A DNA stretch of 64,000 bases, taken from positions 3,720,001 to 3,784,000 of the forward strand of contig NZ_CP034759.1 in NCBI RefSeq assembly GCF_004295665.1, in the 5' to 3' direction. Positions 21,084 through 22,570 of this stretch are shown piece after piece. Every line of letters begins with the position of its first letter. The stretch's first letter is position 1. Both the position numbers and the translations under genes were made by a program. Under the pieces are notes generated by a model, which had not been told where the DNA came from, made no database searches, and was given only the letters and a program-made list of their open reading frames with translations. This DNA is from Litorilituus sediminis (GTDB lineage Bacteria > Pseudomonadota > Gammaproteobacteria > Enterobacterales > Alteromonadaceae).

Positions 21084-21455
21084 TTAAAGTCGACCAGCGG
21101 CTTTAAGCCTTTTAAGCACCCGTTGATGATACAGTTTGGCTAAATACGGACGAATAAAGGGCAGGGCGATAATCCAAGCAATAGGCTTTAATAACCAAAC
21201 ACGTTTCATTAAGGTTATGTACGCATCAAGCTCTGATTGTATTTCACCGTTAGCCAGTTGAATATGAAGTTCTGTTAGTGCTTTTTCAGGTGCAATACCT
21301 AGGCTAACTAGTAAATTATCTTTGCCGTTAATATCTAGCCAATCAACGAGTTCGCCGCCTTTCCCCGCAAGACGTTGATAAAATCGTCGATCTTTAACAC
21401 ACTTTGGGCAAGCGCCATCATAGAATACGGTGAGCTTTTCTGGCTTTGTTTTCAT
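21084..21455 (-). CDS. DCC-family (DUF393) thiol-disulfide oxidoreductase-like protein
   Basis: A 123-residue DUF393 protein. The diagnostic DGACPKC motif (residues 14-20) follows a short strand (LTVFYDG) as in thioredoxin-like folds, and a hydrophobic C-terminal half includes WLLKPIAWIIALPFIRPYL. Family function is not established. It lies downstream of ssrS and its repeat copies, where many gammaproteobacteria have fau (ygfA). Confidence 0.85.
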   Translation of the reverse strand: MKTKPEKLTVFYDGACPKCVKDRRFYQRLAGKGGELVDWLDINGKDNLLVSLGIAPEKALTELHIQLANGEIQSELDAYITLMKRVWLLKPIAWIIALPFIRPYLAKLYHQRVLKRLKAAGRL

Positions 21456-21592
21456 GGTTGTGGGCTTATTAACTTAGACAATAAAAGTATAGTATTGCTA
21501 AGCGGTATTAGTAATAGCCTATGACTTATTTTGGGGAGAGTGGAATTTACAGCAAAAAGAATTCGTTGGTGTAACACTTCTAGGGGAAGTGA

Positions 21593-21663
21593 GTTTCCAG
21601 AATGTCGCAGCTGACAATGTCTCAGTACACCGTGTGCTTTCCTTGTTGGGGCGCGGAAATATT
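21593..21663 (-). repeat. 6S RNA 3'-arm copy C
   Basis: Partial copy of the last ~60 nt of ssrS, third and furthest downstream. It keeps the GCTGCG core and a terminal GGAAAC in place of GGAAGC. Its hairpin arms are diverged from copy B by one base (GTAC for GCAC). After its 3' end the minus strand reads GGAAACTCACTTCCCC, a remnant of the terminator hairpin that follows ssrS proper, so this looks like the ancestral 3' edge of the amplified array. Confidence 0.75.
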
Positions 21664-21702
21664 ATTGGTAAAGTGCTGAGAATTATAATAATAGGGGGGG
21701 AC

Positions 21703-21772
21703 GCTTCCAGAATGCCGCAGCTGACAATGTCTCAGCACACCGTGTGCTTTCTTGAGGGGGCGCGGAAATATT
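21703..21772 (-). repeat. 6S RNA 3'-arm copy B
   Basis: Partial copy of the ssrS 3' arm, almost identical to copy C and joined to it by a 39-nt linker (21664-21702) identical to the linker between copies B and A (21773-21811). The hairpin tip AGCACAC/GTGTGCT differs in sequence from that of ssrS (CTGAACAC/GTGTTCAG), but pairing is preserved. Each linker holds a minus-strand TATAAT (21687-21682; 21796-21791) followed by CTCAGCAC, which can pair with GTGCTGAG inside the arm. Confidence 0.8.
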
Positions 21773-21811
21773 ATTGGTAAAGTGCTGAGAATTATAATAA
21801 TAGGGGGGGAC

Positions 21812-21882
21812 GCTTCCAGAATGCCGCAGCTCACAATAGTCCTGAACAGCGTGTGATTTTTTGAGGGGAGCGCGGAAATATT
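21812..21882 (-). repeat. 6S RNA 3'-arm copy A
   Basis: Partial copy of the ssrS 3' arm nearest to the real gene. The 44 bases from 21812 match ssrS at 43 positions, but the 5' side of the hairpin is diverged so the stem is poorer than in the other copies. It starts about 55 nt beyond the 3' end of ssrS. Confidence 0.8.
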
Positions 21883-21923
21883 AAATATAAAGAAGATGGT
21901 AAAGAGGTTCGTACAAGAAAAGT

Positions 21924-21942
21924 AAAAAGGAAGTGTGCTTCC
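21924..21942 (-). terminator. intrinsic terminator at the 3' end of ssrS
   Basis: On the minus strand GGAAG-CACA-CTTCC (21942-21929) is followed by five T (21928-21924). The stem overlaps the last bases of mature 6S RNA, so transcripts ending here could be trimmed to the mature 3' end. Confidence 0.6.
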
Positions 21943-22114
21943 AGAATGCCGCAGCTCACAATAGTCCTGAACACCGTGTGTTCAGGGCGGAAATATCATG
22001 CCAACCGTAGGCTTCCCGATACATGCCGGGCTTGCACAATAGCTAATAATCAATTCCCTTAGGTAAAACTTATCGGCTCAGGGACATAGTTCGCATACAA
22101 ACATCCCAGAAGAC
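21937..22114 (-). ncRNA. ssrS: 6S RNA
   Basis: A 178-nt RNA that binds sigma-70 RNA polymerase. Evidence: it lies directly downstream of zapA on the same strand, the normal gammaproteobacterial place for ssrS. It has the conserved segment GTCCCTGAGCCGATA near the 5' bubble and the GAGCTGCGGCATTCTGGAAG 3' end. The ends form an 11-bp closing stem (CTTCTGGGATG with GCATTCTGGAAG, allowing G-U pairs), and the 3' arm contains the CTGAACAC/GTGTTCAG hairpin. The size matches the E. coli RNA (~184 nt). Ends are estimates: the 5' end from the -10 box, the 3' end from the closing stem. Confidence 0.92.
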
Positions 22115-22120
22115 AATGTC

Positions 22121-22149
22121 AGTATAGCGAAAAATGGCTACAGGAATAA
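22121..22149 (-). promoter_or_regulatory. ssrS promoter
   Basis: On the minus strand TATACT (22126-22121) is a good -10 box, with TTATTC (22149-22144) 17 bp upstream as a weak -35. It places the transcript start at about 22114, exactly where the closing stem begins. Confidence 0.6.
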
Positions 22150-22192
22150 GTTTTTTTTAACAGGTAAGAGCTGAATGCCCAGTAATTAAACG

Positions 22193-22501
22193 TTATGCGC
22201 GTTTATTATCCGCTGGGGTCAATGCTTGCTCGATAGTTGATTGTAGTAACTCAATTTTTTCCTGCTTTTCTTGCTGCTCTACTTTTAATTGTTGCTGAGC
22301 AAGCAATAAGTCATTGGCAAGATTTAAAGCGGTAATAACTAAGGTTTGTTCTGGCGTGGCAATAACTTTGCTTTGACTACTCTTTTCAATGCGCTTATTT
22401 AATTCTTCAGCGGCAGACAGCAAAGCGCTTTCTTGTCCTGTTGGACAAGCCACTTTTAATTTGCGATCAAGCACATTGATTTCAACAGTTCGCTGTTTCA
22501 T
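22193..22501 (-). CDS. zapA: cell division protein ZapA
   Basis: Z-ring-associated protein that bundles FtsZ filaments. About 102 residues from ATG at 22501: MKQRTVEINVLDRKLKVACP, the ALNLANDLL helix and a C-terminal coiled coil rich in Gln/Glu, as in ZapA. The frame continues to an ATG at 22561, but the extra 20 residues (MQDCKRNYTILL...) are not part of the family and I leave them out. Downstream on the same strand is ssrS; upstream and divergent is ygfB, as in E. coli. Confidence 0.92.
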   Translation of the reverse strand: MKQRTVEINVLDRKLKVACPTGQESALLSAAEELNKRIEKSSQSKVIATPEQTLVITALNLANDLLLAQQQLKVEQQEKQEKIELLQSTIEQALTPADNKRA

Positions 22502-22570
22502 TAAATGAAAATTTCCAAGAGTAATTAATAATATAGTGTAATTCCGTTTACAATCCTGCACTATAACTAG

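Follow-up and report, generated by a model that had tools for sequence, protein, structure and literature searches.

Tandem copies of the 6S RNA 3' arm downstream of ssrS in Litorilituus sediminis and its relatives

The ssrS locus

The window analysed here is a 64,000 nt (64-kb) stretch of the Litorilituus sediminis genome, to which all coordinates refer. It contains a complete 6S RNA gene, ssrS (21934..22115, minus strand), as the sequence-only reading had claimed: an Rfam search of the window gives RF00013 at 85 bits over model positions 1-187, running from 22115 to 21934 on the minus strand, as the sole Rfam match in the window above a gathering score. 6S RNA acts as a general brake on transcription. 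The upstream neighbour is zapA (22193..22507, minus strand; PF05164), which customarily accompanies 6S genes, and the next same-strand gene downstream encodes a DCC1-like thiol-disulfide oxidoreductase (21084..21455, minus strand; PF04134). The native 3' arm of ssrS (21937..21999, minus strand) comprises GATATTTCCGCC, the release hairpin, and the closing-stem 3' strand GGAAGC, and is the part of the gene that the units described below resemble. A terminator-like hairpin, GGAAG-CACA-CTTCC followed by TTTTTACTTT, is built on the closing-stem 3' strand (21929..21942, minus strand); a terminator scan around the gene found one hairpin, against a mean of 0.7 (sd 0.9) in shuffled sequences.

Downstream of ssrS and in the same orientation (all on the minus strand) lie three copies of this arm, separated by linkers. 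Linker 1 (21885..21933), which is C- and T-rich and G-poor on the RNA strand, precedes unit 1, or copy A (21812..21884; 66.9 bits to the unit model R1, this copy being among those used to build it); linker 2 (21777..21811), which contains TATAAT and CTCAGCAC, precedes unit 2, or copy B (21703..21776; 58.3 bits to R1, built with this copy as well); and linker 3 (21668..21702), a duplicate of linker 2, precedes unit 3, or copy C (21595..21667; 48.4 bits). Alignment recovers the three copies originally noticed by eye: besides ssrS itself at 21937, the last 44 nt of the gene recur at 21593, 21703, and 21812, the steps being 110, 109, and 125. With the copy at 21812 as reference (100%), identity is 98% for ssrS, equivalent to the 43 of 44 bases first counted, 82% for the copy at 21703, and 77% for that at 21593. 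Smith-Waterman scores for copies A, B, and C are 94, 77, and 64, where the best of 200 block shuffles reached 29; their nhmmer scores are 33, 26, and 23 bits, all inside model positions 113-175; and none of the three has an Rfam match, even at E 10.

Other details of the first reading fared less evenly. The linkers of copies B and C had been described as identical over 39 nt; the longest exact repeat common to the two units is in fact 75 nt, at a distance of 109, and covers linker 3 and its neighbours. TATAAT with CTCAGCAC, supposedly in every linker, is present in two of the three but missing between ssrS and copy A. Hairpin pairing, said to be kept in B and C, is kept in copy B (AGCACA/TGTGCT) but weaker in C, and that of copy A is broken, all as judged by eye.

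The array is confined to the ssrS locus: a search of this strain's genome, a single contig of 4.28 Mb, at E ≤ 1 matches the array sequence to no place but its own, which rules out a dispersed intergenic repeat of REP or MITE type. When the query was extended by ssrS, two 21-nt matches appeared elsewhere at E 0.087, which is chance level. Nor is the array an assembly artefact, because many genomes have the same arrangement, including four assembled as single contigs (G000, G007, G154, and G164).

Distribution among related genomes

The genus of L. sediminis (g1) was searched in 39 genomes, its own included; two (G169 and G173) have no convincing ssrS and the contig of a third (G148) ends inside the gene, leaving 36. 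A family sample comprised 147 genomes from 52 genera, 146 of them with 6S; ssrS surroundings were read for 108 of the 146, with all 52 genera represented. The two sets together give 139 evaluable genomes. In each, the last ~74 nt of the genome's own ssrS served as query against up to 900 nt downstream, with 200 block shuffles as control.

Downstream copies are present in 39 of the 51 evaluable genomes of five genera: 29/36 in g1, 5/5 in g8, 2/4 in g26, 2/2 in g35, and 1/4 in g52. None was found in the 88 evaluable genomes of the 47 other genera sampled from the family, nor in 30 loci from 30 other families of the class (the best-scoring 30 of 99 genomes with a 6S match). Three positives are marginal (L048, 34 against a threshold of 32; L050, 24 against 23 on 68 nt; L110, 39 against 35); the remaining arrays score 1.4 to 4 times the threshold. 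On the reverse strand, 4 of the 139 loci pass (L002, L034, L123, and L133), so chance crossings of a few per cent are to be expected. Single short matches in L104 (20 nt) and L111 (26 nt) came from a first Smith-Waterman pass with 40 shuffles over 1400 nt; they failed at 200 block shuffles over 900 nt and are not counted. The array is thus real, common to several genera, and clade-specific. A recent amplification, as first proposed, suits the duplication of B and C, but not an array type that several genera have in common. With no arm copy in 7 of the 36 genomes of its own genus, the array must also be dispensable.

The array genomes cluster on a tree built from the first 125 nt of ssrS (137 rows), where 9 changes of the array label suffice, against a mean of 34 when labels are shuffled. 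The starred branches of this tree, which has few columns and many open forks, require at least two changes of label, so multiple origins, or losses, are possible. A strict unit pattern, which proved too strict, matches three records among named genomes, all Colwellia. R1, run over 295 genomes of the order with a first step that scores 16 candidates per genome and hence has low sensitivity, has matches in eight, namely G000 (three units plus the ssrS arm), six genomes with one match each inside ssrS, and G204.

Some loci differ in appearance. In L048, the 450 nt after ssrS hold a different-looking array of alternating units that combine GTGAGCTGCGGC with an altered end, GCTGAATAGCACTAGGGAAG; about six units can be counted by eye, a single one of which passes the shuffle threshold, marginally. 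In L110 (genus g52), two units 116 bp apart lie 41-210 nt after ssrS and have a different internal change; one passes the shuffle test, and this array is possibly of independent origin. Draft contigs of L037, L050, L058, L060, L068, L091, and L132 stop inside ssrS or within ~320 nt after it, as if the repeats break the assemblies of array-clade drafts; the contig end in L058 resembles a library adaptor.

Unit structure

Unit anatomy was compared in 82 units with at least 58 model positions each. These come from 35 of the 39 arm-positive genomes; of the other four, L048 and L110 have no box (see below) by eye, and L050 and L091 are cut by contig ends. After the linker, a unit typically has a stretch like AATATCAAC (often), then ATATTTCCGCGC, two or three variable nucleotides, a box like CTCTAGAAAAGCAC, and the 6S arm, GTGTTCAGGACTA...GCTGCGGCACCTTGGAAGC. 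The arm corresponds to the 3' strand of 6S stem 2; in most units it also includes that of the closing stem. In ssrS itself, GATATTTCCGC leads straight into CCTGAACAC, which forms the 5' strand of a 9-bp hairpin with GTGTTCAGG. What sets the units apart from ssrS as a group is the CTCTAGAAAAGCAC-like box in the place of CCTGAACAC: a pattern search found the native release-hairpin 5' strand in none of the 82. The closing-stem 3' strand, which every copy was first thought to keep, is roughly kept in the window, but an intact-strand pattern fails in 30 of the 82 units, where the strand is replaced, interrupted, or changed, and holds in 52.

Spacing between units ranges from 87 to 144, with a median of 117 (47 steps), and the number of copies from one (15 genomes) to six (one genome). 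Among the matches listed (at most six per locus), all extra hits to the ssrS profile lie inside model positions 98-175, in the 3' part. The units are not extra 6S genes: they lack the 5' half, the 5' strand of the bubble, and the apical stem.

A trailing half unit with no arm copy occurs in L044, L062, L108 (which is counted among the 88 array-free genomes), and L135; a fifth, in L058, is cut by the contig end. The 11-mer of these half units differs by 0-1 mismatches from the ssrS motif of the same genome, which is partly lineage-specific, a fit equalled by none of 200 shuffled motifs. Elsewhere (L040, L046, L049, L053, and L136) the unit motif departs from that of the genome's own ssrS. A variant ending in ...TTCCCTGCGGCA or nearly so is found in several species (L046_u2/u4, L049, L053_u1/u4, and L067); it differs from the ssrS of each carrier, so unit subfamilies may predate species.

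Sequence constraint and neutral origin

For a comparison of constraint, the first unit of each of the 35 genomes was taken (595 pairs) and all segments were aligned with a single aligner; choosing the best-matching pair of units instead led to a similar result, biased upwards. In pairs with ssrS identity below 0.97, the 24-nt box after CCGC has an identity of 0.69-0.70 against 0.56 when shuffled, although its end overlaps CAC.CGG, which ssrS also has, and the unit set favours box-keeping units because the profile used to collect them includes the box. Trailers are near the shuffled level (0.61-0.63 against 0.59-0.60), and so are linkers in pairs below 0.93 ssrS identity (0.58-0.60 against 0.57-0.58); linkers reach 0.66 against 0.59 in pairs at 0.93-0.97, and equal the box, at 0.75 each, in the 22 close pairs (ssrS identity of at least 0.97).

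In composition, the linkers are distinctive. On the RNA strand they are 4.8% G and 23.4% C (3470 nt), a C:G ratio of 4.86, compared with 1.2 over 200 nt beyond the array and 2.0 over the 60 nt that first follow ssrS at loci with no unit match. C exceeds G in the linkers of all 35 genomes, at least threefold in 30. Strand-specific composition of this kind, with the sequence itself not conserved, is what would be expected of a transcribed, unstructured stretch of Rho type.

A serious rival to any functional account is that the array arose by slippage and unequal crossing-over in an ancestor (or a few times), and has since been kept alike by concerted evolution and exchange with ssrS, with no function at all. 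Variable copy number and spacing, the frequent failure of the closing-strand pattern, and the absence of arm copies from part of the genus would all be natural on such an account, as would the greater similarity of linkers within a genome (0.72) than between genomes (0.52); one relative (G172) also has a like array at rnpB. However, the box could not be renewed from ssrS by conversion, and yet it is conserved where linkers at larger distances are near the shuffled level; the linkers stay G-poor in every genome despite their unconserved sequence; and the native hairpin strand is missing from all units. A purely neutral history is possible but on the doubtful side. The array has the look of an old feature kept by selection, and is probably selected.

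Much more improbable is a role at the DNA level, with the ssrS 3' end as a recombinase attachment site and the units as old att copies. The 3' ends of RNA genes often serve as att sites, and the unit edges are consistent. But with units recurring every 87-144 bp there is no room for an integrated element, and the five neighbouring proteins scanned in the window include no integrase. The strict unit pattern, which finds three records even among genomes, is unmatched in IMG/VR, no match turned up in phage records, and the G-poor strand bias suits RNA better than DNA recombination.

Promoters and terminators

The units had also been suggested to be separate small RNAs with promoters of their own, a suggestion that the sequences do not support. 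TATAAT occurs within 65 nt upstream of 7 of the 82 unit cores; a promoter scan of 21450-22250 turned up two sites where 1.5 would be expected, neither of them on the strand of the units; and for shared self-structure, RNAalifold found no pairs in an alignment of 74 units and six weak ones (-1.89 kcal/mol) in 27 chosen units. Independent small-RNA genes with a conserved promoter and structure are not supported. On inspection by eye, many units show a linker hairpin, AAATATC-GATATTT, which is compensated in one case (L062), but the feature is inconsistent.

Intrinsic terminators do not appear to be the main signal either, their enrichment being modest and no greater in array genomes. Terminator-like hairpins are found at 8 of 39 ssrS ends with an array (0.21, against 0.10 shuffled), at 24 of 97 with none (0.25, against 0.13), and at 9 of 64 unit ends (0.14, against 0.06). 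Termination of E. coli ssrS is reportedly Rho-dependent (Chae et al. 2011), and the G-poor linkers suggest Rho.

Predicted pairing and folding

That the arms could pair with the 5' half of ssrS, as first proposed, is supported by computed pairing and folding. Paired in silico with the 5' half of their own genome's ssrS, units have a mean energy of -35.1 kcal/mol, compared with -33.5 for the 5' halves of other genomes, their own being the better partner in 24 of 35; shared descent would also predict this. Complementarity of the box to the 6S 5' bubble strand was considered and dropped (mean z -0.15, own-versus-swapped p 0.25).

Folding predictions, which are for equilibrium rather than co-transcriptional folding, were made for ssrS together with the first unit. 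The unit outcompetes the native arm for the 5' closing strand in 30 of 35 genomes. Mean capture of this strand is 0.69 by the unit, 0.14 by a shuffled unit, and 0.82 by an exact copy of the native arm, which captures it in 35 of 35 genomes under a model that leaves long loops unpriced; closing-strand capture is therefore a trait of any downstream arm. Stem 2 is more particular to the units: its 5' strand has a predicted pairing of 0.37 with the real unit and 0.05 with a native copy in its place, the unit being higher in 29 of 35, while in 6S alone its pairing with the native arm is 0.19. For the native release hairpin, predicted formation is 0.97 when the unit is included, against 0.82 in 6S alone. 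Because the units do not have the native release-hairpin strand, a unit arm could take stem 2 with the native arm kept in its release hairpin.

These predictions might seem to favour action of the units in trans: as small decoys or anti-6S RNAs, they would invade mature 6S and drive it into the release-hairpin form. The preference for their own 5' half and the predicted capture of stem 2 by hairpin-less arms would be in keeping with this, but there is no conserved promoter or clear self-structure, 30 of the 82 units fail the closing-strand pattern, and shared descent would also account for the better own pairing. Action in trans is unlikely.

Possible functions

In the reading tentatively preferred here, for which the chances are a little short of even, the array is a clade-specific, selectively maintained, transcribed 3'-end or termination module of the 6S gene, of the kind seen at rnpB and tyrT. 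That it is a repeated 3'-end module of some description is probable, because it looks old and maintained and resembles two RNA-gene arrays of E. coli. The array would then be the read-through tail of a pre-6S transcript, with each G-poor linker serving as a Rho entry or termination zone, to which a weak intrinsic terminator formed from GGAAG...CTTCC-T would contribute in some species. A transcript that runs past one zone would acquire a new 3' strand from each arm, with which the 6S 5' half could close before the 3' end is trimmed; the unit arm would take stem 2, and the native arm would remain in the release hairpin. Re-closing cannot be the role of every unit, because just 52 of the 82 have the intact closing strand.

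A bolder version makes the array an off switch for 6S. On read-through, a hairpin-less unit arm would capture the 5' half, the native arm would form the release hairpin, and promoter mimicry would be lost, so that the efficiency of Rho termination would set the active share of 6S; by extension, the rnpB, tyrT, and ssrS arrays would belong to one general class of refolding or termination modules for RNAs whose ends pair. This we regard as improbable. If the module does control 6S termination or folding, it would add a regulatory layer to a global transcription brake, and its effect on 6S could be tested in cultured Colwellia.

Comparison with known arrays

Duplication of 3' ends is not general in these genomes. 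With 16 genomes searched for each RNA, downstream copies follow 0 of 12 complete tmRNA genes, 0 of 15 SRP RNA genes, and 1 of 15 rnpB genes; what looked like tRNA 3' fragments in the weaker tmRNA matches proved, in the one case read, to be complete tandem tRNA genes. The rnpB exception is in G172 (L180, contig G172:C35), from the same genus as L. sediminis: two copies of the rnpB 3' arm lie 59-113 and 170-220 nt after the gene end, score 49 and 46 against a shuffle maximum of 33, and are accompanied by a terminator-like hairpin after the gene end and after the first copy.

Arrays of this kind are already known from E. coli, at rnpB and tyrV. No account of an ssrS array with hairpin-less units and G-poor linkers was found among the titles and opening abstract lines of the open-licence papers searched. 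6S RNA itself (RF00013) is also among the closest relatives of the units, which resemble positions ~112-175 of the ssrS profile but consist of the 3' arm only. In E. coli K-12, three copies of the last 50 nt of rnpB follow the gene at 113-bp steps (scores 76, 76, and 72, against a shuffle maximum of 29) and share an internal insertion relative to it. The likeness is close: both are tandem, same-strand copies of a gene's own 3' end with an internal change common to the copies, and the rnpB copies include the 3' strand of the closing helix of that RNA. The ssrS array thus belongs with the rnpB and tyrT kind. The differences are in the ends and linkers. Clear terminator-like hairpins stand after the rnpB gene end and after copies one and two (a degenerate one after the third), and the linkers have a G content of 0.31, whereas the ssrS linkers are G-poor and the terminators weak or absent.

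At E. coli tyrV, the last 19 nt of tRNA-Tyr recur in three downstream copies spaced 178 bp apart, each scoring 38 where shuffles reach 29 at most. These tyrT/tyrV 178-bp repeats (rttR, tpr) are, like the ssrS units, copies of an RNA 3' end downstream of its gene, but the copied part is much shorter; they also hold an annotated small RNA and a small protein, while open frames in ssrS units were considered in the window only. After E. coli rnpB and tyrT, ssrS is a third, unrelated RNA gene with such an array, here in many species and with a clear on/off distribution, and 3'-arm arrays therefore become a comparative problem.
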